Part shown: positions 39,370 through 59,152 of the stretch, piece after piece | Layout: the number at the start of each line of letters is the position of its first letter | Numbering within the stretch: the stretch's first letter is position 1 | Assembly (NCBI RefSeq): GCF_003688285.1 | Contig: NZ_RCNT01000001.1 | Coordinates: 831,573-895,572 of the forward strand | Length of the DNA stretch: 64,000 nucleotides | Direction: 5' to 3' | Origin: Rhodophyticola porphyridii | GTDB lineage: Bacteria; Pseudomonadota; Alphaproteobacteria; Rhodobacterales; Rhodobacteraceae | Position numbers and translations under genes: made by a program | The notes under the pieces: generated by a model | What the model was told of the DNA's origin: nothing | What the model saw: only the letters and a program-made list of their open reading frames with translations | Databases searched by the model: none

Positions 39370-39385
39370 TTAATCCTGCGTTAAC
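39370..39385 (+). promoter_or_regulatory. CtrA-binding site upstream of radC
   Basis: TTAATCCTGCGTTAAC is an exact TTAA-N7-TTAAC, the full CtrA consensus of alphaproteobacteria, 91 bases before the radC start and in an otherwise GC-rich context. DNA-repair and recombination genes are known CtrA targets in Rhodobacterales. Confidence 0.7.
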
Positions 39386-45843: not shown

Positions 45844-46062
45844 GTGTCTTTTGTCAAAGCCTTCATGGAGTCCGAAAGCGGCGCCGTTACGGTCGACTGG
45901 GTCGTGCTGACCGCCGCCCTTGTCGGGCTTGGAATCGCTGTTGTCGCAGTGGTTGTGGCAGGGGTTCAGGAACCCACGAACAGTCTCAACACCCAGCTTG
46001 GCACGGACATCACCGATATGCATGACTGGACAAGTACGCCGCAAAACGATCCCAACGGCTGA
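45844..46062 (+). CDS. Flp/TadE-like small pilin-type membrane protein
   Basis: A 72-residue protein starting at GTG with GAGGA eight bases upstream. The sequence MSFVKAFMESESGAVTVDWVVLTAALVGLGIAVVAVVVAG shows the E-S-G-A-V-T-V-(D/E)-W motif and long hydrophobic helix of Flp-type IVb pilins in Rhodobacterales. No tad assembly genes are nearby, so it would rely on machinery elsewhere or have another role. Confidence 0.72.
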   Translation: MSFVKAFMESESGAVTVDWVVLTAALVGLGIAVVAVVVAGVQEPTNSLNTQLGTDITDMHDWTSTPQNDPNG

Positions 46063-46319
46063 TCCGGGCGGGCTATTTGCGCGGCGGGGCGCCTCTCCGC
46101 TCGGGCGTGTTCGAGAAGGCTTTGCGATTGCGTTCGGTCCACCCCACATCTCGACATTTCAGTAAAACGGGTTCGGGTCGACGCCACGGGTATGATCCGA
46201 CCGCGCGCGTTGCGTGCATCGGTCTGATCCAGCGGCGCGGCGGCGCCGAGCGGAGATTCCGCTGATTTCGGATTGATGCGGCGGGACCACGCAAACCGTC
46301 GGGGTTTTCATTCCCGAGG

Positions 46320-46466
46320 ACCTGTTAGTACAGGTGGGCGCCAGGTAACCGGACCAGGGTCCGGACAGAGCCAGCTCCCTCGGAGATGTGTAAGGCCACC
46401 GGAATCGTGCCCCATGTGACAAGAAAGGCAGTACCCGCCTGTTGTGGCAGATAGGCGGTCCACCCT
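46320..46466 (-). ncRNA. Candidate structured RNA, 6S-like
   Basis: Read on the minus strand, the ends pair as a closing stem: GGTGGACCGCC (46464-46454) with GGCGCCCACC (46342-46333), interrupted only by a small internal loop. Inside is a strong hairpin CCGGACC-CT-GGTCCGG followed directly by TTACCTGG, recalling the 3-prime side of the E. coli 6S bubble, where a hairpin is followed by GGTTACAGCC. An adjacent hairpin ACCTGT-acta-ACAGGT lies just beyond the closing stem. No protein-coding frame here is convincing. The usual 6S neighbours (zapA, 5-FCL) are absent, so the 6S label is tentative. Confidence 0.35.
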
Positions 46467-46560
46467 CCATGAGCAAGGGCGCAATTTGCTTGGGTGGATC
46501 TGAAACGTCGGATCGCGCCCACCTTCGGTTTCGTACCCGTTCCGACCGCGCTTGATTTTT

Positions 46561-46575
46561 GTTCACCTATTGTTC
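46561..46575 (+). promoter_or_regulatory. LexA operator of mmcB
   Basis: GTTCACCTATTGTTC is an exact GTTC-N7-GTTC, the alphaproteobacterial LexA (SOS) box. It ends 11 bases before the mmcB ATG, so LexA would cover the core promoter. Confidence 0.85.
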
Positions 46576-46586
46576 ATGCTTCCGGC

Positions 46587-47039
46587 ATGCCGGATGATCT
46601 CTCCCCTTCAATGCCTCGCCCCGGTCAGTTGCTGGCCCGCGGCGTGTGCCGTCATCTGCGAACCCATGGCTTTGCCGTGCTTGAGGAATTCTCGCCCGAG
46701 CGAGGCAAACGGGTGGATGTCATGGCCTTGGGGCCAAAGGGTGAAATATGGGTGGTGGAGTGCAAATCCTCCCGCGCGGATTTCAACTCCGACGCGAAAT
46801 GGGAGGGGTATCTCGATTGGGCCGACAGGTATTTCTGGGCCGTCGACGAAGCATTCCCGACGGATCTTCTTCCGGACGGGACGGGATTGATCATCGCCGA
46901 TGCCTATGACGCGGAGATCCTGCGGTTCGGGCCGGAGAGCAGGCTGGCAGGGGCAAGACGCCGGGCGCTGACCCAGCGGTTCGCCCGTCATGCGGCCCTG
47001 CGTTTGCAGGGCCTTCGCGATCCGGAGGCGATTATCTGA
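46587..47039 (+). CDS. mmcB: MmcB-family DNA repair protein
   Basis: A 150-residue protein of the MmcB family, with LLARGVCRHLRTHGFAVLEEFSPERGKRVDVMALGPKGEIWVVECKSSRADFNSD resembling a PD-(D/E)xK nuclease core (VDVM...WVVECKSS). In Caulobacter, mmcB is an SOS gene needed for mitomycin C resistance; the perfect LexA box just upstream fits this. The ATG at 46587 has no Shine-Dalgarno and sits close to the predicted transcription start. The ATG at 46611 (MPRPGQLLARG) is an alternative. Confidence 0.88.
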   Translation: MPDDLSPSMPRPGQLLARGVCRHLRTHGFAVLEEFSPERGKRVDVMALGPKGEIWVVECKSSRADFNSDAKWEGYLDWADRYFWAVDEAFPTDLLPDGTGLIIADAYDAEILRFGPESRLAGARRRALTQRFARHAALRLQGLRDPEAII

Positions 47040-47333
47040 GATCGGCCTGGGCGACGGATCCCGCCGTGCGAGCACCATGGCCGACCCAAGGTCCGCGTGA
47101 TGGCGTGCGCCACTGCACAAGCGTTTCGCACATGGGATTCCGCAGGATGCCCGCGTCAGTCTGTCTGACCCGATTGGCGGATGACATCGCGGGCGGGGGG
47201 CGCGGGTGTGGCGGTGAGGGTGAACGCCGCAAAGTCAGCGCATGATCCATTGCGGGGCGCGGGAGGGAACCGGCACCTTGACCCGGATCGGCCTATAACA
47301 ATGGTATATCAATTCCGCCGGTGGCACCTGCGC

Positions 47334-47522
47334 CTATTTTGCCATTTTCCGGGCCGCCTCGGCGGCGGCGCGCAGCTCGTCGGCGATTTCCAGCGCCTCG
47401 TCCGGATCGAAGTCGAGCGGCAGGTCCACGCCATCGCCTTCGATATATATACGGACCATGCCAAGCGTGGTGGGGCCGATCTGCAGGTTTGCGGCCAGGT
47501 CGCTTTCTTTGTTGATGCTCAT
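47334..47522 (-). CDS. DUF6324-type small conserved protein
   Basis: A 62-residue acidic protein beginning MSINKESDLAANLQIGPTTL, followed by MVRIYIEGDGVDLPLDFDPDEALEIADELRAAA and a basic tail ending KMAK. It resembles a small family conserved in Rhodobacterales. GGAG lies about ten bases upstream of the ATG. It has no membrane segment. Divergent from the MarR-GNAT gene, it shares a 104-base region containing the MarR-type operator. The function is unknown. The 294 bases to its right-hand neighbour mmcB (47040-47333) show no gene. Confidence 0.72.
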   Translation of the reverse strand: MSINKESDLAANLQIGPTTLGMVRIYIEGDGVDLPLDFDPDEALEIADELRAAAEAARKMAK

Positions 47523-47594
47523 CGGGCAGGTCTCCGCGCCTTGGGTGCGGCGATGCAGGTAGCCCCTTGCGATTTGCGAGACAAGGGGCAATTA

Positions 47595-47609
47595 CTTGCC
47601 TAAGGCAAG
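47595..47609. promoter_or_regulatory. MarR-type operator
   Basis: CTTGCCTAAGGCAAG is a perfect inverted repeat with a single central base. It contains TTGCC-N3-GGCAA, the core of the classic E. coli MarR box. It lies 17 bases upstream of the MarR-GNAT start codon, immediately before its RBS, suggesting autoregulation and possibly control of the divergent small gene. Confidence 0.7.
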
Positions 47610-47626
47610 AATTGAGGGGTGATTGC

Positions 47627-48547
47627 ATGGATGCGATAGACCGGATCAGGGCCTTCAACCGGGCTCATACGCGGCGTCTGGGCCTGCTGCGCCAGGGATA
47701 TCTGGAGGCGGGCCTGAGCCTTGCCGAGGCCCGGGTGATCTTCGAACTGGCCGATGGCTTCGGCTGGACGGCCGGGGCGCTGGCACAGCATCTGGGCCTG
47801 AACGAGGGTTATCTCAGCCGGATGCTCGGCCGGTTGCAGAAATCGGGGCTCGTGGAAAAGACCCGGCATCCCCGCGACCGGCGGGCGCAGATTCTCGGGC
47901 TGACGCGGGAGGGGCTGATCCGCGCCGCGGAGTTGACGGCCCTTTCGCGGGCGCAGATCGCGGAGTGGATCGAGGGCCGGGCCGAGCCGGATATCGCGGC
48001 GCTGGTGGCGCGGATGGAGGCGGTCGATGCCGCCCTGTCGGAGCCGAAGACCGCCGCGCCGCAGATCGAGCTGCGCGATCTGGCGATCGGCGATGCGGGC
48101 TGGCTGATCGAACAGCACGGCACGCTTTATGCCCGCGAGGCCGGGTTCGACGCCGAGTTCGAGGCCCTGGTGGCCGAGATCCTTGCCGATTTCATCCGCA
48201 CCCGGGACCGGTCCTGTGAGCGGGGATGGATCGCATGGTCGAACGGGAAACGCATCGGGTCGATCTTCTGCGTGAAGGGCCCGGAGCCGCGGCTGGCCAA
48301 GCTGCGCCTGTTCCTGCTTCTGCCGGAGGCACGAGGCAGGGGGCTGGGCCAGCATCTGCTTGATACATGCATGAGCTACGCACGTGCGCGCGGATACGAC
48401 CGGCTGGTTCTGTGGACCCATGAAAGCCATCGCGCGGCCTGCGCGCTTTACAAAAAGAACGGTTTTGCCCTTGAAAGCGCGGTGCCGGTCCACGCTTTCG
48501 GCGTGGATCTGGTGGAACAGCACTGGTCGATCGGGCTGACCCCGTGA
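47627..48547 (+). CDS. MarR-family regulator fused to GNAT acetyltransferase
   Basis: A 306-residue two-domain protein. Residues 1-140 form a MarR winged helix (LSLAEARVIFELADGFGWTAGALAQHLGLNEGYLSRMLGRLQKSGLVEKTRHPRDRRAQILGLT). Residues of about 150-306 form a GNAT domain with the acetyl-CoA loop LRLFLLLPEARGRGLGQHLLDTCMSYARARGYDRLVLWTHE and ALYKKNGFAL. GAGGGG precedes the ATG at seven bases. This is a known domain fusion. The ligand and acetyl acceptor are unknown. Confidence 0.88.
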   Translation: MDAIDRIRAFNRAHTRRLGLLRQGYLEAGLSLAEARVIFELADGFGWTAGALAQHLGLNEGYLSRMLGRLQKSGLVEKTRHPRDRRAQILGLTREGLIRAAELTALSRAQIAEWIEGRAEPDIAALVARMEAVDAALSEPKTAAPQIELRDLAIGDAGWLIEQHGTLYAREAGFDAEFEALVAEILADFIRTRDRSCERGWIAWSNGKRIGSIFCVKGPEPRLAKLRLFLLLPEARGRGLGQHLLDTCMSYARARGYDRLVLWTHESHRAACALYKKNGFALESAVPVHAFGVDLVEQHWSIGLTP

Positions 48548-48620
48548 CCGGCAGGGGGCAAGCGTGTCGGGGCGCGCGGGGAAATGCGCCCGGCGCTGAG
48601 GGACGCTATTCGAAAACAGC

Positions 48621-48827
48621 CTAGTTGCTGTAGCAGCGCGACCGGTGGCCGAACCCGGCGGGAGAACAGATATAGCTGCCATTGCCGATCACCCGCACAC
48701 GCACAGGGCGGACCTGGCGCGGCTGCGCGCCGGAAAGCAGATTGAGCCCGCTGACTTCGGGATACCAGATGCCAGATGTGGCAAAGCTGCGCCTCATGCA
48801 GACGAGACTATATCCAGTCGCTGACAT
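48621..48827 (-). CDS. Small Cys-containing protein, unknown function
   Basis: A 68-residue frame whose C-terminal half, RVRVIGNGSYICSPAGFGHRSRCYSN, has a composition resembling small exported Rhodobacterales proteins that end SPAGFG-x-x-SRC. The two C-terminal cysteines could form a disulfide. No clear signal peptide is visible, so the N-terminus may be degraded or the start lies elsewhere. Support is limited to the tail pattern. Confidence 0.35.
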   Translation of the reverse strand: MSATGYSLVCMRRSFATSGIWYPEVSGLNLLSGAQPRQVRPVRVRVIGNGSYICSPAGFGHRSRCYSN

Positions 48828-49499
48828 GTTGCGGTCATGGTCGGTTGGGTATTGCGTCGCAGCGATACCATCCGCCCGGCCGTAGTAACGGGCAGCACAA
48901 TTCGGGGAACCGCAAGATCTTTGGTGACGGGAGGAAGAGAGCGAGCCGGGCGCGCAAAGCTGTTCCGGAGGGAAGTAACGCCCTGCGTGAAGGCCGTTAA
49001 GTTCAAAAAAAATGACAATCTGACCTGTCGAAGTCGCCTTGAACGCTTTTGAGGTCTTCGCGATGCCGGACCCATATGAACCGCATACACGCGTAACCGA
49101 ACAGGTCTGACCGCAGGCAGATCATCAGAAGGGGTCAGATCGGGTATGACATCTAGATGGCCCTGATCATGGCTTGACCCAGCCAGAAATCTGTCAGGTC
49201 AATGCCTCCTGTCCCAGTAACGGGATCTGCCGGTTGTGTGTGACAGTGGCACCCAGTGGCATGATCGATTTCGCGCATTTTGGATACTGTCTGAACAGGG
49301 ACATCTTAATGGCTGCGACACCCCTGGAAATCCGATGCGGTCATACCGTCCACAACCAGAAAAAACTGCTTTCACACGACAGTTTGCTGATTATTGCAGG
49401 ATGGCAACGGCTCATATCTGCTGTTAACTTTTTGCTTGCACCTCTCTTTCTGCAAGCAGATCATGCCCGTAAGAAAAAAAGGGGTAAGGACGTAAACCA
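48828..49499. other. Intergenic, AT-richer DNA before the adhesin locus
   Basis: About 670 bases with no convincing gene. A rightward 118-codon frame (from 49174) ends in low-complexity Lys codons and has no recognised domain. Base composition drops compared with the DNA to the left. Two A-rich/GGGTAAGG motifs, at 49472-49490 and 49510-49523, precede the next gene. The promoter of the following operon is expected here. Confidence 0.5.
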
Positions 49500-49519
49500 T
49501 ACCCTTAAGAAAAAGGGTA
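49500..49519 (+). promoter_or_regulatory. Hairpin overlapping the Shine-Dalgarno region of the HfaA-like gene
   Basis: TACCCTT (49500-49506) pairs with AAGGGTA (49513-49519) around a six-base loop. The right arm abuts the ribosome site GTAAGG, only seven bases before the ATG at 49527. Folding could limit translation. This is inferred from the complementarity only. Confidence 0.45.
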
Positions 49520-49526
49520 AGGAAAT

Positions 49527-49898
49527 ATGAGGGCAGTCACAATAGCTATGGCGGTCGTTGTTTCAACGGCCGCATCCAGCCACGCGAATGGTTTTGGAGA
49601 AGCACAAGGTTTTCAATTTCGAAGTTCGGCTGAGCGTCAAACGCTCATCCTGCAAGAGCAGGTGCGCCTTCAGTTCAGAGGCAGCGGCTCAGCCCTCGGT
49701 GGTCAGGGCGTGGGCCAGACAGGTAACCAAACCACCATCACAATCAATGGGAACGGAAACAACACGATCGACCTGATGCAAGACAACTCAGGTGACCAGT
49801 CGATCGTTGAAGTGGATGGCAATGACAACCAAACAAATGGGGCTTCGCCCAGTGCTGTGATATCCGGCGCCGCAGCTACTTTGATGGCAACCCCTTAA
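49527..49898 (+). CDS. HfaA/curlin-like exported amyloid subunit
   Basis: A 123-residue protein with a signal peptide (MRAVTIAMAVVVSTAASSHA). A GFGEAQGFQFRSSAERQTLILQEQVRLQ segment follows, then curlin-like repeats: QTGNQTTITINGNGNNTIDLMQDNSGDQSIVEVDGNDNQTNG, where Q, G and N recur with strand-length spacing as in CsgA. It is the first gene of a unit with the HfaB/CsgG-like gene one base downstream. By analogy with hfaABD in Caulobacter and csgBAC/G in enterobacteria, it is probably secreted through the outer-membrane HfaB pore as an anchor or fibre subunit. Confidence 0.7.
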   Translation: MRAVTIAMAVVVSTAASSHANGFGEAQGFQFRSSAERQTLILQEQVRLQFRGSGSALGGQGVGQTGNQTTITINGNGNNTIDLMQDNSGDQSIVEVDGNDNQTNGASPSAVISGAAATLMATP

Positions 49899-49899
49899 G

Positions 49900-50781
49900 A
49901 TGAAATCAATTTTTGGTATATTAGCACTTGGTCTCGTGACTGGGTGCGGGACGCTACCTGAAGAGCTGAGTGAGCCCCGAGCGCAATATTTCGGACCGCT
50001 CCCGGTCGCGAACCTGACTCCAGCCGATGCTGCATTGCAGTGCTTATCGCAAACACCGGAGGTGCGGCGCAGCAACGTTGTTTTTGCCGTTCATGTTATC
50101 TCGGATGTCACCCAGAGGGTCAGCGTAGATGAGGTTGGGCCCTACATCCCGCGCGATGCCGCGTCGATGCTGGTGACGGCATTGGAACGTGCAGGCGTAG
50201 ATCAGGTCAATAGAATCAACACTGCTGTCTCAGAGTTCGAGATAGCGCTGTCCAGGGAGCAGATCCTTGGCGATGGGGGGCTTACCCAGATCGAAGGTGA
50301 GACGATTCCTTACCGGCCGATCCGCCGTGGTGCGTTTCGTGGTTCCCGCTATGTAATCGACGGCTCGATAACTCAGCTTGATTTCAACACTTACTCCGAA
50401 GGAGCAGAGATCGGGTTTTTCGGGCTCGGTGCGGGGCGCCGGGCCTTCGCGTTGACAGTCGGTGCCGATCTCAGGGTGACAGATACTGTCTCGACTGAAA
50501 TCGTCATGAGTGAGAGCTACGCCAAGCAGGCTGTCGGCCGTGAAGTCTACGGTTCGATTTTTCGGTTTTTTGACGACGAACTTTTTGACTTGAATCTCGG
50601 ACGCGAAAACATCGAAGGGCTGCACGCCGGAATACGCTGGCTGATGGCGGAGGCTGCTTACGATATCGTCAGCGAGATCGTTAACCATGGTGGCAGTTGT
50701 GATGCGCTCCTGCCCCGCAATTTCGGTTCCGGGACAGAGGCCGCAGACGAGTTGCGGGCGACATTGGCCCGTGTCGAGTAG
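49900..50781 (+). CDS. hfaB: HfaB/CsgG-family outer-membrane lipoprotein
   Basis: A 293-residue lipoprotein with signal peptide and lipobox V-T-G-C (lipidated C16). The CsgG/HfaB family is recognised by FAVHVISDVTQRVSVDEVGPYIPRDAASMLVTALERAGVDQVNR, SRYVIDGSITQLDFNTYSEG, VGADLRVTDTVSTEIVMSESYAKQAVGREVYGS and the C-terminal helix LHAGIRWLMAEAAYDIVSEI. CsgG forms a nonameric secretion channel for amyloid subunits; HfaB is its Caulobacter counterpart for holdfast anchoring. It overlaps the next gene by eleven bases. Codon usage is less GC-rich than in neighbours to the left. Confidence 0.85.
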   Translation: MKSIFGILALGLVTGCGTLPEELSEPRAQYFGPLPVANLTPADAALQCLSQTPEVRRSNVVFAVHVISDVTQRVSVDEVGPYIPRDAASMLVTALERAGVDQVNRINTAVSEFEIALSREQILGDGGLTQIEGETIPYRPIRRGAFRGSRYVIDGSITQLDFNTYSEGAEIGFFGLGAGRRAFALTVGADLRVTDTVSTEIVMSESYAKQAVGREVYGSIFRFFDDELFDLNLGRENIEGLHAGIRWLMAEAAYDIVSEIVNHGGSCDALLPRNFGSGTEAADELRATLARVE

Positions 50782-51235
50782 TTGCGGCGGCATAGCAGCG
50801 TTGGCCGCAGCGCTGATTTTTTCGGTTGCGCAGCCAATTCATGCTCAGCAGTCGACCGGAGAGGCAAATCCCTCGCCCGTCTTCGACCCCACGCCTTTTC
50901 TAACGGCGATGGTCGAATATCGTCTGTTGGCTTTTTCCTGTGAAGAGGTGCTGCCAGGTTCCCCAATCCAGGGTTCAGAACAGATCGCGGAATACTTCCG
51001 AAATCTGGGACAGGAAACGCCCTCGGGCAGCGATGCGCAGACAGACCGTTTGGTTTACACCCTCGTCCGCGCTCAAGCGGCTTCCATCTGTTCTGAACGT
51101 TTGCGCAGAGCGGCGTTGCGATATGGGGAGCAGGCGGTGATCTATGAGAATTCAAAGCCGGAAGCCTGGCCATCTGCACCGTTGATCAATGCGGGCCCCT
51201 GGTGTTCAGACGAGACGTGTTCGAGCCTGCGATAA
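50771..51235 (+). CDS. Small exported protein of the HfaB locus
   Basis: A 154-residue protein starting at a GTG inside the end of hfaB. A signal peptide (GGIAALAAALIFSVAQPIHAQQ) precedes a mature part with four cysteines (FSCEEVL, SICSERL, PWCSDETCSS), suggesting periplasmic disulfides. No family is recognised. Coupled to HfaB, it could be a periplasmic accessory or chaperone comparable in position to CsgE/CsgF. This is inference from context. Confidence 0.65.
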   Translation: MSSSCGGIAALAAALIFSVAQPIHAQQSTGEANPSPVFDPTPFLTAMVEYRLLAFSCEEVLPGSPIQGSEQIAEYFRNLGQETPSGSDAQTDRLVYTLVRAQAASICSERLRRAALRYGEQAVIYENSKPEAWPSAPLINAGPWCSDETCSSLR

Positions 51236-51266
51236 CATCGGATCGAAGAGTGAGAGCTCTGAACGC

Positions 51267-52430
51267 TCAGCGTTCTACGGCAGCGGCATTCCCGACCTGA
51301 ACTTGCCGGCCGTTGCCGCTTTCGCTTGACTGGGGGATGGTATTGCCTTGCGACGCGGTCACAGGGAGTATCGAGGCCGTGCCGCCACCCTCCCCATTTC
51401 TGATGTAGAGAACATTCGCGTAGTTCTCAGCAACATGGTTGTATTCAGATATCTGGGCCGTCAATGAGGCCAGGGAAGCATCGGTTACGTCGTTTTCGAC
51501 GGACTGTACGCCTTCGGAGAACTGTACCAGACCGGATACTTCGATTGCGGATACGAAGTTCGCGATGTTGATACCCGATTGAGTGACGTTTTGTGGTAAG
51601 GCGGCCATTTCCTCCACCAGGATGTTGTTCAATATGATTTGCTCGCCATTGAACACCCGAACCACATCATGAACCTCGTCTGAGATGAGAATGTTACCGA
51701 GGTTTGTCCCTTCCTGGACGATTACACCACGCGTACCCGCAGTCGCCGGCCCCACGCCATTTGCGATGTTCACGAACTGATCGGGAATGTCGAAGGCCTG
51801 GTCGAAGGGCAGTGCATTGCCGGGTTGGCCGCTCAGACGGACAAAATTGTCTATGGATTGAATGGAGTCGAACGGAAAGACCTGAGAACCGGCGCCGATC
51901 GAGATTTCTGCCACCACGATGTTTGCGGTGTTCCGACCCGTCTGCATCAAGGAGCCGTTGGCGAAACCCAGGCTGGCCAGGTTTTCGACCGCCTGGGTGC
52001 CGCCGGGACCAAACTGCTGAGCCATACTGTCCACGCGCTCGGCGATGATCACGTTGGTGAGGTTTTCACCAGTCTGTTGCAGAGATCCGCTCAGAACACT
52101 GAACTCTCCACCTGTCAGAGTGTTTCCGGCCAATTGCTGGCCGGCGCCGATTTGCTCGGCGCTTTCGACCACGGTGGTCTGAGAGATCAGGATGTTGGCC
52201 GCGTTCGTGATAAGCTGGGTGTTATTTTGGGTAATTGATGCGCCGATCCCCGGTCTCGACAAGAGGCTGTCTGTCTGTCCGGGCAGGTTTGCGAGATCAA
52301 GCGTATTGAGGCCTATCTGGCTTGCGTCGAAATGCTGATCGACAACCACGCCGGTTCGCTCTTCAGCATGTGCGGCAGCGGCAGCGACGAGGGCTGATAC
52401 GGCGAAAACTAAGCCAGCATGACGGGACAT
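51267..52430 (-). CDS. HfaD-like exported repeat protein
   Basis: A 387-residue protein with a signal peptide (MSRHAGLVFAVSALVAAAAAHA). The mature part repeats Q-x-G-x-N-x-x-N-(I/V)-x-x-(A/S)-E-(I/V): QQTGENLTNVIIAERV (118-133), QTGRNTANIVVAEIS (163-177), QEGTNLGNILISDEV (239-253) and QSGINIANFVSAIEV (284-298), with degenerate copies near 66 and 326. The pattern is close to curlin repeats, and the size suits holdfast anchor protein HfaD. It is convergent with the hfaB unit and downstream of the 576-residue repeat gene, with which it is probably co-transcribed. Confidence 0.65.
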   Translation of the reverse strand: MSRHAGLVFAVSALVAAAAAHAEERTGVVVDQHFDASQIGLNTLDLANLPGQTDSLLSRPGIGASITQNNTQLITNAANILISQTTVVESAEQIGAGQQLAGNTLTGGEFSVLSGSLQQTGENLTNVIIAERVDSMAQQFGPGGTQAVENLASLGFANGSLMQTGRNTANIVVAEISIGAGSQVFPFDSIQSIDNFVRLSGQPGNALPFDQAFDIPDQFVNIANGVGPATAGTRGVIVQEGTNLGNILISDEVHDVVRVFNGEQIILNNILVEEMAALPQNVTQSGINIANFVSAIEVSGLVQFSEGVQSVENDVTDASLASLTAQISEYNHVAENYANVLYIRNGEGGGTASILPVTASQGNTIPQSSESGNGRQVQVGNAAAVER

Positions 52431-52517
52431 TGCAATAATTGCTCATCTTCTTGGAAAATTCAGAAACCGAAGCCGGAGCGGCGGGGACACCGCCGCTCCG
52501 GCAAAAGCTGTATTGGA

Positions 52518-54248
52518 TCAGTTGCCGCTGCCCGCCGAGGGCATACCGATCGAGTTGGCCACGTTGGTTGCGGCTTGCGTCACACCCGAGACGGATGCGG
52601 TCGTCGCCGCAATATTGGTTGCCAACTGGAAACCGGAGCCGAACTGAGAAATGTCCGTTGCGCCCTGGATATCCGGCAACTCGTCTGCGCTGATGACGTT
52701 CACAGCGTTAACTGCGCTCTGATCGAGATCCAGAATGTCACCGCTTCCCGTCATGAAGAAGCTCGCAAGGTTCGGAACCGCTACGTTTCCGGCGACTTGC
52801 TGGAAGTAAGCATTCTGAACCGTCACACCCTGCAGTTCGTTGAGCGAGATCATGTTGGCGGCGTTGGTCGCGGACTGTGCGACATCGACCAGACCTTCAC
52901 CATCTTCGCTTCCAAAGGACACGAAGTTGCCAGCCAACTGACCCGAGAGGCCAGACATGTCAACAACCTGGCTGACCACCACATCGGTGCCGTCCTGCTT
53001 GATATCGTCGCCCGAGAGCGAGTTGACGACGTTGGTCGCAGTCTGGGTCAGGTCATAGATACCTGCATCACCCAGCCCGAAAGCAACGACGTTGGTCGCA
53101 GTCTGGTAAGACTGAGCCCACCGCTGATCGACAGAACCTTCGATATCATCGAACTGGGCGATGTTTGCCGCATTCGTTGCGGTTTGTGTGACATCATCGA
53201 TCGAGTCACCCATGTCGATCAGGTTGCCCGCGCGCTGCACCAGATCCCGGCTGCGCTGAACAAGCGTCTCGATGTCACCATCTCCAAGATCGGCTGTCTC
53301 AGGCACCGAGACAGAGTTGGTAACGTTGGTGGCTGTCTGGTCCAGATTCTCGACGACATCGCCGAAATTGGGGTTGCCGGGATAGATATCCGGGCCAAGA
53401 ACCATGTTGTAGGCAATCTGCTCGGATGACACAGACACCTGCTTCAGAGATTGGGCATCTTCCAGGAAATTGATCAGGTTCGCCGCATTGACGGCATCCT
53501 GAAGATTGGGATTGCGCGCTCTTGTCGCCCGCAGATCGTCTTGGCTTACGATCGTGTTTGTCGCGCGCTGTGAGCTGTGCGCCATTCTCTGAGTGACATC
53601 ATCAAGATTTGCGCCGGACACAGAGTTGGCAACGTTCAGTGCCGACTGAACAACATCCGTGAGATCATCAAAATAGTCGTCGCCGATGGCAGAGTTCGTA
53701 GCAGTTTGATCGCTGTAACGCATCACCTGCCTGACGTTTTCGGTCAGGTCGGTGGCAGGCGCATTGACCAAGTTTGCCGCGTTCAGGGCCGATTGGTCGA
53801 TGCCGACGGAGTCGCCGTCGAAGAACACGGAGTTGTCGGCAGCCTGACCGGAATAGATCGTACGCTGCGTGATGGTTTCTACTGTGGCACCAGCCTCCAT
53901 GCTAAGGCTGTTCAGCACGTTGGTGGCTGTTTGGGTCACGTCCTCGAACCCGTCAAACGGACCTGCAGGGTCGTAGAAACCATCGGTCGAGTTGACGTAG
54001 TTGGTCGCCATTTGATCGACACCGACTGCAGCTTGGTAGATGTCGTCGAGCGAGTCTGCCCCTCGTGCAATGATGTTACCGGCATTGGTCGCTGCCTGGG
54101 TGATATCGTCACCACCGTCGCCGGCGTAGATCGCATTCAGTGCAACTTGCACACCATGCAGGATCTGATCGATGTCAGTGTCATCTGCGAGCGCGGGCGA
54201 AGCCGCCAGCGCGAGCGAGACCGCGGTTGTCGTTAGATACTTTTTCAT
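52518..54248 (-). CDS. Exported protein of eleven ~50-residue Q-x-A-x-N-x-x-N repeats
   Basis: A 576-residue protein with a signal peptide (MKKYLTTTAVSLALAASPALA). The core QxAxNxxN starts at residues 51, 106, 152, 201, 250, 304, 355, 402, 458, 510 and 558, an average spacing of 51, usually preceded by D(V/I/L)(T/D). Between the cores lies a second half-repeat of the type V-x-Q-...-S-x-Q-x-A-x-N (for example SSQRATN, SYQTATN, SGQLAGN). The protein is acidic with almost no Lys or Cys. The pattern suggests a beta-solenoid or amyloid fibre secreted by the HfaB/CsgG-like pore. I know no named family for it. The start has a purine-rich RBS; the frame extends further upstream without a signal peptide. 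Confidence 0.75.
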   Translation of the reverse strand: MKKYLTTTAVSLALAASPALADDTDIDQILHGVQVALNAIYAGDGGDDITQAATNAGNIIARGADSLDDIYQAAVGVDQMATNYVNSTDGFYDPAGPFDGFEDVTQTATNVLNSLSMEAGATVETITQRTIYSGQAADNSVFFDGDSVGIDQSALNAANLVNAPATDLTENVRQVMRYSDQTATNSAIGDDYFDDLTDVVQSALNVANSVSGANLDDVTQRMAHSSQRATNTIVSQDDLRATRARNPNLQDAVNAANLINFLEDAQSLKQVSVSSEQIAYNMVLGPDIYPGNPNFGDVVENLDQTATNVTNSVSVPETADLGDGDIETLVQRSRDLVQRAGNLIDMGDSIDDVTQTATNAANIAQFDDIEGSVDQRWAQSYQTATNVVAFGLGDAGIYDLTQTATNVVNSLSGDDIKQDGTDVVVSQVVDMSGLSGQLAGNFVSFGSEDGEGLVDVAQSATNAANMISLNELQGVTVQNAYFQQVAGNVAVPNLASFFMTGSGDILDLDQSAVNAVNVISADELPDIQGATDISQFGSGFQLATNIAATTASVSGVTQAATNVANSIGMPSAGSGN

Positions 54249-54907
54249 TGTGTCTACTCTCTCAGCCTGAACAAGGCTTTGGTGAACCAGTGGGCAAAAA
54301 GCCCGCTCAAAGCGCAGCCTCAAGAAGCCTGCACGCCTGGGTTGCCTGGGTTCACTTGGTCGGTTTCCTTGAAACTTGACCCTGTCGTTACACTTGCAAA
54401 AAGTCAGAAAGCACAAGAATTTTCAGTTTCAATAGTTCAGGAAATATCACCCAAGAGACATGGCTTCCCAGCACAGGGTGGATGACACCATCAAGTGATT
54501 TGACCGAACAGTCAGGAAATTCCTGTCAGTCGAATCCTTACAAGCTTTTTGTACAGGTTGACATGTTTGAGGTGTTGATAACTCGCGGCGCGAATCAGTC
54601 TTTAGCCCAGTAATTACTGCCAGTCTCGTTAGAAGCTCGCGACGGCTCTCGGCGAAGGCTTTGATAAGAGACGACAAAAAACAGTATGTTTCCAACTCAA
54701 GGGCAGGGAAGATATTCCCATTAACCTTAACGAATCGTTAATTTGTGGTATTAAGAAGGCAGAAGTTGGGCAAAATACACGAAGAACACCAACGTGTGCG
54801 CTGATCGGCGGTTTTTGACCGAAAGGCCCAGTTTGTAGTACGATTTCCGTCGGTTGCCCGTAGGTTCGCCGATCCTGTTTTTCAGATTTTTCTTCGGGAA
54901 GGATTAC
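54249..54907. other. Divergent regulatory region of the adhesin locus
   Basis: About 660 bases of AT-rich DNA between the leftward repeat-protein gene and the rightward regulator gene. No coding frame is convincing. It holds a CtrA-type site (54727-54741) and several short A/T runs. The length is unusually large for this chromosome, suggesting multiple regulatory inputs, as at csgD-csgB in enterobacteria. Confidence 0.55.
54727..54741. promoter_or_regulatory. CtrA-type palindromic site
   Basis: TTAACGAATCGTTAA is a perfect inverted repeat and matches TTAA-N7-TTAA, the CtrA half-site spacing; it is preceded by another TTAACC. It lies 166 bases before the LuxR-type gene and about 480 bases before the divergent repeat-protein gene. 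Confidence 0.55.
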
Positions 54908-55558
54908 ATGGACGGCCATATACTATTGGACTCAATGGAAAATTCCAGGGCGTCCGATCGAAGAGTTCTTGTGGTGGAGAGCGAACCGGCACTGGCGTGC
55001 GAGATCACAACGCATCTTAGCCGCATAGGCGGAGTTGGCGAGGTCTGTTCAGTCGAGAGACTGAACCAAGCGCGCGAGAGCATTGGTGACGGTGACTTTG
55101 ACCTGGTGATTTTCGACCCGATCATTCTTGATGATCCGGTTGTGGATGGTGAATGGGTTTTGGACTCTCCCAAACTGTCCTGCGTGTTCTTCTCTTCCCT
55201 GGATACGGCCAGATTGGCGTTGGCAAGAACCCGCATCGGTGTCGCCGGGGTCGTCCAGCGTGCAGAAGGGGTGCCCGCACTTTGCCAATATGTCGAGGAT
55301 GTTTTCCACGGCCGCACGGCAGGCAAGGTGCCCATGGACAGCAAAAAGCGGACTCGCAGGGTGATATTAAGCCGCCAGGAACGGCGGGCTGTGTATAGCC
55401 TCGGCCAAGGCTATACGCTGAAGGAGACCGCGGGGCGCATGAAGATCAACCCCAAGACCGTTGAAACCTACAAGAGCCGTGCGCTCACAAAACTCGGAAT
55501 TTCGTCTCGGGCAGAGTTGATCGGCTTGGTCGCATTCGGGCGGTTTCCCGATCCTTGA
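54908..55558 (+). CDS. LuxR/FixJ-type transcriptional regulator with degenerate receiver domain
   Basis: A 216-residue protein. The N-terminal 130 residues have a receiver-like fold (VLVVESEPALACEITTHLS, DFDLVIFDPIIL). The conserved acidic pair and the lysine of true receivers look altered (VVESE; VVQRAEG where a Lys is expected), although an Asp is present at position 70. Residues of about 152-212 form a LuxR helix-turn-helix (LSRQERRAVYSLGQGYTLKETAGRMKINPKTVETYKSRALTKLGISSRAELI). AAGGA precedes the ATG. CsgD, the curli master regulator, has the same architecture, so control of the adjacent locus is likely but inferred. Confidence 0.82.
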   Translation: MDGHILLDSMENSRASDRRVLVVESEPALACEITTHLSRIGGVGEVCSVERLNQARESIGDGDFDLVIFDPIILDDPVVDGEWVLDSPKLSCVFFSSLDTARLALARTRIGVAGVVQRAEGVPALCQYVEDVFHGRTAGKVPMDSKKRTRRVILSRQERRAVYSLGQGYTLKETAGRMKINPKTVETYKSRALTKLGISSRAELIGLVAFGRFPDP

Positions 55559-55769
55559 ATGCCCTGTGCGGCGATGGTGTAAGGGGCCAGATTACATTTG
55601 CAATGGCCGGTAAGAGGCTTTTCTCTTGAGTGGGGAGCCAGGAAGATGGCGCCGAGGTCGCACTCCCAGTTTGGTTTCGAAGGTTCGAACGGAACCGGCA
55701 AGACGTCACAATCTCTCGCGCCGACGAGCCCACTCGATGCAGGTGCAAAGCATCTCTGATTGGCTGGAG

Positions 55770-56636
55770 CTATGAGACAGCGCCATATGCTGCAACAATT
55801 GCCTCAAGCCGCGCCGCGGTGCGATTAAGCTCCCGCTGTTCAAATGGCAGTCTGTTGACCTCCTTTACAAGCGAGTGGGCTGCCATCACGACACCCCATG
55901 CGATAAGCCGCTCCTGGCTTAGGGCCGTTCGCGCGTTGATCTGGTTCGCTATTCTGATCGCACGCTCCGGGTTGTTGACAATCTCAACCTCGTGGCTGGG
56001 ATTGCAAAATGCCTGCCCATACTCGGCTTCGGCCTCCCCATAAAGTGTCATTGGATCGATTGCACACCATTCACGTTTCCCTTCGACAATGTTGGTGTGA
56101 TGAAGATCGCCATGAAGAAGCCCCCTTTCAGCACGGCTATCACGGTCAAGTGACATGCGCGCCACGTCAATGGCTTTTTGAAAAGTAGCTGTATTCAACG
56201 CGGGATGCGCGTTCCGGTCTGTTTTTAGGAGGGTGTCGAAGCGCAGCTCGAGATTTCTTGCCGGTTTGAACCCGAACCGTTTTTTGCGGATTGCTTCTGC
56301 AATGTCGATGATGATCTCGGTCGCGGTTTCGTCATCGCCGCGCGAAACAACACTCTGCAACATGTTTCCTTCGAGGCGCTCAAGCAGCAGGGCGCCAGGA
56401 CATTCGCGTAACAGCCGCACACATGCTGCCCCGTTCATCAACGAAAGGAATTTCGGAGCTTCTGCCTCGGATCCCAGCGACAAAAGACGATAGACCTTTA
56501 ATATCGCGGGCACTTCGTCTTCCAGCGTGACCTCAAAGATTTGTGCCTGACTTCTGGCAGGTCGGGTTCCCACCAACGTGAGACCCCATTTTTCCAGAAA
56601 AGGCCCCGGATCTAGGTTTTTTGAAGAGCCAGGCAC
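55770..56636 (-). CDS. Aminoglycoside/hydroxyurea phosphotransferase-like kinase
   Basis: A 288-residue kinase of the APH(6)/streptomycin phosphotransferase-like family. The catalytic loop is LLHGDLHHTN (D177), and the metal-binding Asp is D194 in CAIDPMTLYGEAEAEYGQAFCNP. The N-lobe reads AILKVYRLLSLGSEAEAPKFLSLMNG. It may inactivate aminoglycosides, or phosphorylate another small molecule. It is isolated between the regulator and the polysaccharide genes, with no mobile-element ends adjacent. Confidence 0.8.
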   Translation of the reverse strand: MPGSSKNLDPGPFLEKWGLTLVGTRPARSQAQIFEVTLEDEVPAILKVYRLLSLGSEAEAPKFLSLMNGAACVRLLRECPGALLLERLEGNMLQSVVSRGDDETATEIIIDIAEAIRKKRFGFKPARNLELRFDTLLKTDRNAHPALNTATFQKAIDVARMSLDRDSRAERGLLHGDLHHTNIVEGKREWCAIDPMTLYGEAEAEYGQAFCNPSHEVEIVNNPERAIRIANQINARTALSQERLIAWGVVMAAHSLVKEVNRLPFEQRELNRTAARLEAIVAAYGAVS

Positions 56637-57016
56637 GTTATATACTTTCTCGCTCTGGTCGCAGGTAAGATGAGCGTCTCACATTGCCACAAATGCCGCT
56701 CCGACCTCAACAAGCCGAGGGTACTTTTTGAAGGCCTAAAGACCTTAGAGCCGAAATCAGTCTGTCATTACAGCTATTGATCAGTCCTGGCTTGGCCTTG
56801 GGTTATGCATGCCAATCTGTTCGGACGGGCAAGCCGTTTCGCGCAGACCTGCCACAGGCGTCACCAGGGAGTTTCGAGGAGTGAAGAAAGTGGGAAATAT
56901 GTCATTCAGACCAACAGAAACAGTCTAGAAAGATCAGGTCAGAGAAGGTCAAAGCCTTGCCATATAAGAAAGAATCCGGATAGTCTTTGTCTGGGGACAG
57001 GGATTGCTTGGGGATC
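56637..57016. other. Intergenic region before polysaccharide genes
   Basis: About 380 bases, AT-richer than the average of the window, without a convincing gene or structured RNA. It should contain the divergent promoters of the kinase and glycosyltransferase genes. Purine-rich repeats around 56875-56960 are low complexity only. Confidence 0.4.
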
Positions 57017-59152
57017 ATGGGTTCGAAACGTCAAACTGATACCTACGATATCCTTATGCTTGCCGACTGCACGCGCAGAGGTGATGCCGGGCTGCGCGTT
57101 GCGCAGGAAATTCGGACTTATGCCGGCATGGGCTGTCATGTTGGCGTGATCCAATTGCAGGTCCAACCAACCCACTCAGTCGTTTCCCCCGACATACAGA
57201 TCTGCGTCAGAGAAGGTCTGGTTGACGTCCTTCCGGCCAAACCATCCGCACGTGCGAAACTGGCCATCGTCCATTCACCGGCCACCCTTGCGGCGCCAAT
57301 TCAAGACCTGCGGAGTGTCTGCGCCGATCAGGTTGTGTTCGTGCACGAAAGGAAGCCGGTTCTTTCCCAGATGGGCCTGTGGCTGGGCTTACAGATTGGC
57401 CCGGTTGCCTGGGCGCCCACCAACCGATGGGTGCGGGCGGCATTGGCTGAGCTGAACACACCTGTTCCCCTGTTGGAAGAGGACTGGCGACCGGTCGGAC
57501 AGGAGCTATTTTCCATACCGAAGCGTTGCGATGTCGCCAGACCGACGGTCTGCGGCAGGGTCAGTGACCCAGGGCCCATCCAATGGCCGAACTCAAAAGA
57601 AGAGATCCAGGCCATTTACCCGATCGGGGCGGGCCGTGATTTCCGCGTTATCGGGACGCCTCCAAAACAACTCTGGAAGAAACTTTCCGGGACCTCAGGT
57701 TTGACCGTGTTCGACCCCAGAGAAATCACGGTCGAACGCTTTTTGGAGATGTTGGATGTCTTCATGTACTTTCCGGGCGTTTCGGTTCCCGCTATGCCCG
57801 AGACCGCAATCGCAACGGCTATGGCCTCTGGCAAGCTTGTCGTTCTGCCAAAACATCTCGAATCTCATTTCGGACCAGGGGCCATCTATGCCGACGCCTG
57901 CGACGCGCCTTCTCGAATTGCAGATCTTGAAGCTGACAAGACTGCTTTCGATACTGCCCGCGAGCTTGCAGTTTTCCATAGCAAGATCCAGTTCCCCGAG
58001 GCCTCACGACGCGAAACGATCCTGGATCTTCTCAAGGAAACGAAGCCACGCAAACGGCGCCGGATCTCGAAAACGGGGCCTGAACGGGTGTTGTTCGTCC
58101 CGTCAAATGGTATTGGCCTGGGCCACGTTGCGCGGCTGCTTGCCATCGCGCGGCGCCTTGACGATCGGGCCGAACCCATTTTCGCGACGCTGGCGCAGGC
58201 CGCGCCCATCATCGAATCTTTTGGTTATCTGGCCGAGTACCTACCTTCGCAAGGTGATACCAAAACAATCCAAGCTCACTGGGACGCCTGGTTTTGCGCT
58301 GAGTTGGGCGAATTGCTCGACCGATACGAGCCAAGATCTGTCGTTTTCGACGGCAACAACCCGACACCAGGCCTTGTGAATGCCGTGCTCTCGCGGGGGC
58401 GGTGCGGCTTGGTGTGGGTGCGTCGGGGTATGATCGGGCCTACTCCATCTCCCTATCTGGAGAATGCTCGGTTCATGGACCTGATTATCGAGCCTGGCGA
58501 GGTCGCTGGTGAGTGGGACCACGGCCCGACTGCGGCGCGCCAGCACGAAGCGTTGGTCGTGGATCCGATAACGCTGCTTGACTCAAAGGAAATTCTGCCG
58601 CGAAAGGCCGCGATCGAAGCGCTTGGTCTGTCGTCTGACGCTCCATCGGTACTCGTTCAGCTCGGTGCGGGCGCCAACCGTGATCTGCCGAGCCTGGCGG
58701 AAGAGATTATCGAGCAATTACAGCGGTTTCCGAACCTTCAGATTGTCCTTGCCGAGTGGGAAAACAGCCCGGTGGGTTTTCAAGATCTGCCAGCGACACG
58801 GGTCATACGCGGCTTCCCGCTCAGCAGATTTTTCAAGGCGTTCGATTTTTCGATTTCTGCGGCTGGCTACAACGTGTTCCATGAAGTGATGGCGGCAGGT
58901 CTGCCAACGATCTTCGTTGCAAACCGTCACCCGGCAATGGATCAGCAAGGCATACGCGCAGAGTATGCGCAGGACGAGGGGGCATCTTTCGACCTGCCGG
59001 AAGACCAACTGTTTCACCTGCCCGCACTTTGCGAGGCATTGCTGAACGAGAAGACCCGTTCCTTCATGCGCAAACAGTGCAAACGGCTCTCCAGAGGTAA
59101 CGGCGCAGAAGCTGCAGCCGAGGCAATAATGGACATGATTGGCAGAAGATGA
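57017..59152 (+). CDS. Two-part GT-B glycosyltransferase with MurG/GT28-like C-terminus
   Basis: A 711-residue cytoplasmic protein. The N-terminal about 330 residues resemble a GT4-like GT-B fold (DTYDILMLADCTRRGDAGLRVAQEI, MPETAIATAMASGKLVVLP). The C-terminal about 340 residues have the GT28 pattern: VLFVPSNGIGLGHVARLLAIARRL at the acceptor domain and AFDFSISAAGYNVFHEVMAAGLPTIFVANRHPAMDQQG at the nucleotide-sugar site. The ATG at 57017 has GGGGA close upstream; a TTG at 56987 is possible. Its stop overlaps the next gene by four bases. It is likely part of surface-polysaccharide assembly. Confidence 0.75.
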   Translation: MGSKRQTDTYDILMLADCTRRGDAGLRVAQEIRTYAGMGCHVGVIQLQVQPTHSVVSPDIQICVREGLVDVLPAKPSARAKLAIVHSPATLAAPIQDLRSVCADQVVFVHERKPVLSQMGLWLGLQIGPVAWAPTNRWVRAALAELNTPVPLLEEDWRPVGQELFSIPKRCDVARPTVCGRVSDPGPIQWPNSKEEIQAIYPIGAGRDFRVIGTPPKQLWKKLSGTSGLTVFDPREITVERFLEMLDVFMYFPGVSVPAMPETAIATAMASGKLVVLPKHLESHFGPGAIYADACDAPSRIADLEADKTAFDTARELAVFHSKIQFPEASRRETILDLLKETKPRKRRRISKTGPERVLFVPSNGIGLGHVARLLAIARRLDDRAEPIFATLAQAAPIIESFGYLAEYLPSQGDTKTIQAHWDAWFCAELGELLDRYEPRSVVFDGNNPTPGLVNAVLSRGRCGLVWVRRGMIGPTPSPYLENARFMDLIIEPGEVAGEWDHGPTAARQHEALVVDPITLLDSKEILPRKAAIEALGLSSDAPSVLVQLGAGANRDLPSLAEEIIEQLQRFPNLQIVLAEWENSPVGFQDLPATRVIRGFPLSRFFKAFDFSISAAGYNVFHEVMAAGLPTIFVANRHPAMDQQGIRAEYAQDEGASFDLPEDQLFHLPALCEALLNEKTRSFMRKQCKRLSRGNGAEAAAEAIMDMIGRR

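Follow-up and report, generated by a model that had tools for sequence, protein, structure and literature searches.

A conserved five-gene module with a CsgG/HfaB-family lipoprotein in Rhodophyticola porphyridii and other Alphaproteobacteria: a candidate variant of curli/hfa-like secretion

The closest described relatives of the gene block reported here are the curli system (csgBAC-csgDEFG, type VIII secretion), the hfaA-hfaB-hfaD genes of Caulobacter, and the csgA/csgH set of Alphaproteobacteria. PMC3751295 describes the Caulobacter holdfast anchor operon as activated by CtrA, and PMC3900383 names CtrA sites of a related kind in front of hfiA and hfsJ. For the csgA/csgH set, a class-specific helper has been suggested in place of CsgE/CsgF (PMC3521004), and PMC11962581 deals with CsgG in Marinomonas. 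The block under study lies in a 64,000-nucleotide stretch of Rhodophyticola porphyridii (the window), and its six genes are designated A to F. It resembles the hfa genes in having an HfaA-like protein beside a CsgG-family lipoprotein, a secreted repeat protein and a link to CtrA; it resembles curli in its CsgG-family pore, its exported Q/N-rich repeat proteins (one of them, E, a predicted beta-solenoid) and a LuxR-type regulator divergent from the subunit gene. An earlier note on this DNA had seen in the set a combination of hfaABD and csg features with additions; that it matches neither hfa nor csg one to one is borne out by searches for HfaA, HfaB, HfaD, CsgE and curlin repeats. Genes A to E are a conserved five-gene system common to two alphaproteobacterial orders, rated from its sequences as a variant of curli/hfa-like secretion that belongs neither to hfa as modelled nor to csg. 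Among the PubMed Central papers listed by the literature searches (15 of 291 in one case), none was recognised, from its title or the start of its abstract, as describing this five-gene set, subscription papers being outside that scope. The reading that we favour, with a probability of about 0.6, is that of a CtrA-timed, curli/hfa-like module that secretes and assembles a surface adhesin of solenoid or amyloid-like type. The features of the locus are as follows.

Gene A, 49527..49898, plus strand: exported HfaA-like protein of 123 residues, in which a single curlin-like Q/N hairpin comes after a conserved N-terminus of the mature protein (ANG-GE--FQFRS---RQ) (from hhalign of mature parts).
Gene B, 49900..50781, plus strand: CsgG/HfaB-family lipoprotein (Cys16) of 293 residues, predicted outer-membrane export pore (from Pfam, NCBIfam, tree and alignments).
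Gene C, 50771..51235, plus strand: exported protein of 154 residues with invariant Cys 57, 107, 145 and 150, predicted helical, without known family.
Gene D, 51267..52430, minus strand: exported Q/N repeat protein of 387 residues, paralogue of E, with 11 Q-x3-N motifs.
E-D hairpin, 52472..52502, minus strand: GC-rich, 13-bp; predicted attenuator or processing site.
Gene E, 52518..54248, minus strand: exported repeat protein of 576 residues with 22 Q-x-A-x-N motifs, predicted beta-solenoid.
Candidate F operator, 54510..54542, no strand assigned: an inverted-repeat site present in two copies that overlap, AGTCAGGAAATTCCTGTCA and TGTCAGTCGAATCCTTACA.
CtrA-type full site TTAACGAATCGTTAA, 54727..54741, plus strand: perfect TTAA-N7-TTAA.
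Gene F, 54908..55558, plus strand: LuxR-type regulator of 216 residues whose receiver domain matches weakly.

The six genes stand where the earlier note had placed them, on the same strands, and the 576-residue length of E was confirmed. A, B and C form a single rightward series that faces the leftward D and E, and F is divergent from E. One base separates A from B; C starts with a GTG at 50771 and shares its first 11 bases with the end of B, and a longer open reading frame (ORF) from 50687 starts within B. Comparison of A-F with the Roseobacter locus L026 gave synonymous differences (pS) of 0.61-0.81, near saturation, and nonsynonymous differences (pN) of 0.07-0.21. All six genes are therefore under purifying selection, and none is a chance ORF. 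Judged by eye and by a hydropathy scan rather than by a signal-peptide program, A, C, D and E have signal-like hydrophobic N-terminal stretches, and B has a lipobox-type cysteine, Cys16.

Relatives were fetched with B, which yielded 16 loci (L026-L041), and the presence of genes was scored by phmmer at E <= 0.01. They came from Roseobacter, two Jannaschia, Loktanella, Hasllibacter, Sulfitobacter, three Devosia, four Rhizobium, Peteryoungia, and metagenome-assembled genomes of Allorhizobium and Rhizobiaceae. A, B, C, D and E were all present in 16/16 loci, E of L034 being in two frames. The gene order was A-B-C facing D-E, with F, in Roseobacteraceae; C-A-B facing D-E in Devosia; and E-D, C, A-B in Rhizobiaceae. 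Relatives of B were found in 20 of 292 Rhodobacterales genomes, and in three (G000, G144 and G217) they were of the module type; the G144 locus was counted once, together with the Loktanella record L028. C occurred in exactly these three of the 292 genomes and in one class genome of 385 (G000), in a survey whose first pass is limited to 10-13 candidates per genome and may therefore miss remote relatives of C. A profile of B matched in 35 of the 385 class genomes, G000 scoring 508 bits and the next 160. Of the other 34 class genomes with such a match, 18 were examined at their HfaB-type loci with wide flanks (L072-L089); no C, D or E was found there by profile (0/18), and A had a match at E <= 0.1 in five of them. 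Three of these loci, L087-L089, are further CsgG-family loci with a LuxR-type gene nearby and different exported proteins downstream.

The placement of B in the CsgG/HfaB family, as the earlier note had it, is borne out by a Pfam CsgG score of 47.3 bits (cut-off 20.8), by a score of 146.6 bits against the NCBIfam HfaB model and by a tree. The HfaB score lies below the equivalog cut-off of 300, and that against the CsgG equivalog model is far below its own (29.4 bits of 505). B also matched E. coli CsgG chains (8.6e-7), and it is the sole PF03783 match in the source genome. In the tree of 51 CsgG-family proteins, where some rows, E. coli CsgG included, have long branches, the 17 module B sequences came out as a single clade (100/99), placed together with the HfaB-type rows in a larger group and away from E. 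coli CsgG. In module and HfaB-type rows alike, the stretch that aligns with E. coli PYPASNFSTAVPQ, which we take to be the constriction loop of CsgG, falls short of it by three residues or more; in module B it reads about [DE]ExGx[YF]xPRD. Besides Cys16, the invariant cysteines of module B are Cys48, also found in 15/18 HfaB-type rows, and Cys267, near which several of those rows have one. By its HfaB score and its separate clade, B is homologous to HfaB but not of the same family. B of G217 (L090, 5677-6577) occupies two overlapping frames, by sequencing error or a true frameshift.

The HfaA likeness of A, also proposed in the earlier note, became apparent when mature parts were compared as profiles. 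The NCBIfam HfaA model did not detect A of the window at E <= 10 and matched 1 of 18 A members, at E 0.0067. Mature A aligned with HfaA proper at probability 80 (E 1.4e-5) over 28 columns that correspond to the curlin-like hairpin, and at its N-terminus with a second HfaA-like type at probability 92 (E 7.8e-7). The HfaA-like labels of the comparison loci rest on position by the HfaB-type gene and on composition, those of L081 and L073 on the NCBIfam model. The second type comes from the HfaB-type loci L072 (6166-8231), L075 and L077, in which the N-terminus of the HfaA-like protein, NG--E-RPWQF-T, resembles that of the module; at L072 the pore protein carries an OmpA domain, and an exported repeat protein of 1574 residues is encoded downstream. 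A probability of 97.8 for A against HfaA, obtained with the two types mixed and with signal peptides included, is superseded by these values. A CsgF-like plug was also considered for A, FQFR in its mature N-terminus resembling E. coli CsgF. There hhalign gave a probability of 3.3 (E 0.013), and against four CsgF sequences it gave 8.5 (E 0.004) with the alignment elsewhere; the NPxFGGNP-type core is absent from A, and the candidate was dropped. Directly 5' of the A start, 49470-49526 holds two near-copies of an A/G-rich stretch ending GGGTAAGGA, the second of which lies at the likely ribosome-binding site; they are not conserved in L026.

D and E are paralogues (profile probability 99.4, E 3e-21). 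The earlier note had called D HfaD-like, and this was not upheld: D and E of the window gave no match to the NCBIfam HfaD model at E <= 10, none of 10 D relatives matched HfaD at E <= 1, and hhalign to three HfaD-position proteins returned probabilities of 0.9 for D and 4.7 for E. No Pfam match above cut-off was found for A, D or E, and NCBIfam as a whole gave none for them at E <= 10. E of Rhizobium rosettiformans (L034, 4371-5683) lies in two overlapping frames, again by sequencing error or a true frameshift. The structure model predicts a long beta-solenoid for E, and its best structural match was Vag8, an autotransporter. E and D could accordingly be non-polymerising solenoid adhesins or coat proteins acting as single molecules, with B as exporter only and no fibre. 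E alone, with its 22 motifs, is a predicted solenoid of sufficient length to act singly, and the match to Vag8 points the same way; we nevertheless consider this improbable. In the secretion-and-assembly reading that we prefer, E and D would stack or polymerise, and the amyloid character suggested in the earlier note is a prediction.

The gap between E and D, of 49-97 bp, holds a GC-rich hairpin in 18/18 loci, with stems that vary between groups. Its folding had a z of -1.7 or lower in 17/18 loci (L090, z = -0.29); the gap of L031 rests on the D start chosen. T-rich runs follow 3' of several Rhizobiales stems. The hairpin may be an attenuator that lowers D below E. At the gathering score, Rfam returned no RNA element in 48500-56500.

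The exported Cys-rich protein that the earlier note could not place remains without a known family. C had no Pfam match above cut-off and did not match E. coli CsgE, and a structure search returned no convincing relative for it. Cys 57, 107, 145 and 150 are invariant across 27 aligned sequences, and the structure model is helical, with a predicted local distance difference test score above 90 in the blocks from residue 41 to 140. Its predicted helices and four invariant cysteines may set C apart from CsgH.

Other hallmarks of curli were looked for. No curlin repeat (Curlin_rpt) was detected in A, D or E, nor in 3/3 carrier genomes; CsgE was found in 0/3 carrier genomes, and CsgF had no match in G000, A against CsgF staying below a probability of 10. 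When A and E were aligned with E. coli CsgA by hhalign, the signal peptides alone aligned. The module also differs from curli in its Q-x-A-x-N motif and in the shorter and different loop of B.

The control region between E and F, of about 660 bases with a CtrA-type site in the earlier note, measures 659 bp and contains TTAACGAATCGTTAA. The pattern TTAA-N7-TTAA, which we take to be the CtrA full site, occurs twice in the window against 0.01 expected; the second perfect copy, TTAATCCTGCGTTAA, is at 39370-39384. The 600 bp preceding E contain an exact site in 13 of the 18 loci compared (L026-L041, L090 and the window); L026, L034 and L036 have one mismatch, and L029 and L030 have no site. A first-order Markov control gave a mean of 0.26 loci with a site and a maximum of 2 in 500 runs. 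Of 14 exact sites in 293 kb, the window being covered from 46001 to 58000 so that the copy at 39370 falls outside, 13 were in the 10.8 kb that precede E, and one lay beyond F in L030; the 18 loci are kin, and binomial significance is thereby overstated. Roseobacteraceae, Devosia and Rhizobiaceae nevertheless all have sites, and these differ in their spacers; the element is best described as a conserved, putative CtrA site.

A second site was found by a motif search of eight Rhodobacterales E-F gaps, at one site per gap. All copies start AGTCRG and mostly end CC-N-N-AC-A or similar, forming an imperfect inverted repeat, and the motif scored 148.5 against 104-107 in eight shuffled sets. The best match falls in the E-F gap in 8/8 loci. 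When each site was scored by a motif built without it, it was the top match in 7/8, and in L026 it was a close second to another copy in the same gap; the weakest, in L027, had 16.1 bits against 12.4 elsewhere. The ten Rhizobiales loci gave no match above 11.4 bits, and no strong match was found upstream of A. F is present in 6/6 Roseobacteraceae loci fetched with B (in L029 as a 139-residue ORF only) and in L090, and it was not found by phmmer at the ten Rhizobiales loci. The inverted repeat is a likely candidate for the operator of F. The earlier note had called F CsgD-like: its LuxR type stands, and so does the likeness to CsgD for the helix-turn-helix DNA-binding domain (59 columns, probability 82), to which the match is confined; the receiver does not align. 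A promoter-pattern scan gave 6 matches against 3.3 expected and was left unused as evidence.

The HfaA likeness of A, the position of B nearer HfaB than E. coli CsgG, and a CtrA-type site that parallels the activation of the Caulobacter anchor operon by CtrA raise the alternative that the locus amounts to an hfa operon and serves as a genuine anchor for holdfast polysaccharide, with D and E tethering exopolysaccharide to the cell surface. Polysaccharide genes are also found nearby: in Loktanella salsilacus (L028, 13234-16817) Poly_export and Wzz/GNVR genes directly follow F, and the window has ORFs with glycosyltransferase domains to the right of F, one of which is shared with L026. Polysaccharide genes beside other loci were judged by eye, without a family search. 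However, the true hfa loci L081 and L073 were recognised by the models as HfaA (75 and 80 bits) and HfaB (393 and 377 bits), and an ORF fragment of L081 reached 47.7 bits with the HfaD model, under the cut-off of 100, whereas A, D and E had no match to the HfaA and HfaD models and B stayed below the HfaB cut-off. Moreover, the 18 HfaB-type loci with wide flanks are without C, D and E by profile. We consider this alternative unlikely. The module further differs from the Caulobacter hfa genes in its paralogous D and E, which are encoded on the opposite strand or set apart, in the extra protein C, in a B clade of its own and, in Rhodobacterales, in a LuxR-type regulator.

The favoured reading of a CtrA-timed secretion and assembly module draws on anatomy, homology, selection, co-occurrence, D-E paralogy, the conserved CtrA-type and inverted-repeat sites and the E-D hairpin. 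B would be the outer-membrane pore through which E, and D in smaller amount because of the hairpin after E, exit unfolded. Outside, both would fold into beta-solenoids and then stack or polymerise, giving adhesion. A, with its single curlin-like hairpin, would anchor or nucleate them at the pore, a role thought to have a parallel in HfaA with HfaD. C may serve as a disulfide-stabilised periplasmic partner or chaperone, replacing CsgE/CsgC/CsgH. Under CtrA, E (and D) would be made in step with the cell cycle, and F could act in Rhodobacterales as a second switch via the inverted-repeat site. We propose more tentatively, at clearly less than even odds, a new type VIII-like secretion and assembly system with a cell-cycle-timed pore, a four-Cys periplasmic partner and surface fibres of a new class of giant Q-x-A-x-N beta-solenoid subunits, without holdfast polysaccharide, CsgE or CsgF. 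If the favoured reading is right, a CsgG-family exporter would be tied to the CtrA cell-cycle circuit outside hfa-type systems, and a compact set (pore, HfaA-like protein, helper and two subunits) would be defined in cultured bacteria. The cooperation of an HfaA-like protein with a CsgG-family pore in the absence of CsgE or CsgF would become testable, as would the minimal needs of alphaproteobacterial surface-solenoid secretion.

The earlier note had also taken the lower guanine-plus-cytosine (GC) content of the block as a sign of acquisition, which the data do not support. GC per kb is 0.58-0.72 over the first 49 kb of the window and 0.50-0.59 from about 49 kb to 64 kb, where the contig ends. 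Since low GC continues to the contig end, the drop extends well past the module and does not delimit a 6-kb block, and B of the window nests among Roseobacteraceae in the tree. The patchy distribution (3/292 genomes, with the module absent from the same-genus genome G232) is compatible with gain and loss. Low GC and patchiness, together with the split B in L090 and the split E in L034, could suggest a recently acquired or decaying island without present role; against this stand pS values far above pN in all six genes, regulatory sites kept across two orders and the grouping of B, and we regard such an island as very improbable.

Right of F, the gene at 55770-56636 matches the Pfam aminoglycoside/hydroxyurea kinase family (119.8 bits), a family match only. 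At the contig end, 59149-63786 encodes an ORF of 1545 residues with Pfam matches to alginate lyase (residues 582-861) and family 2 glycosyltransferase (1138-1252). Adjoining it is a 721-residue ORF with a family 28 glycosyltransferase C-terminal match, which, like the kinase-like gene, is also present in L026.
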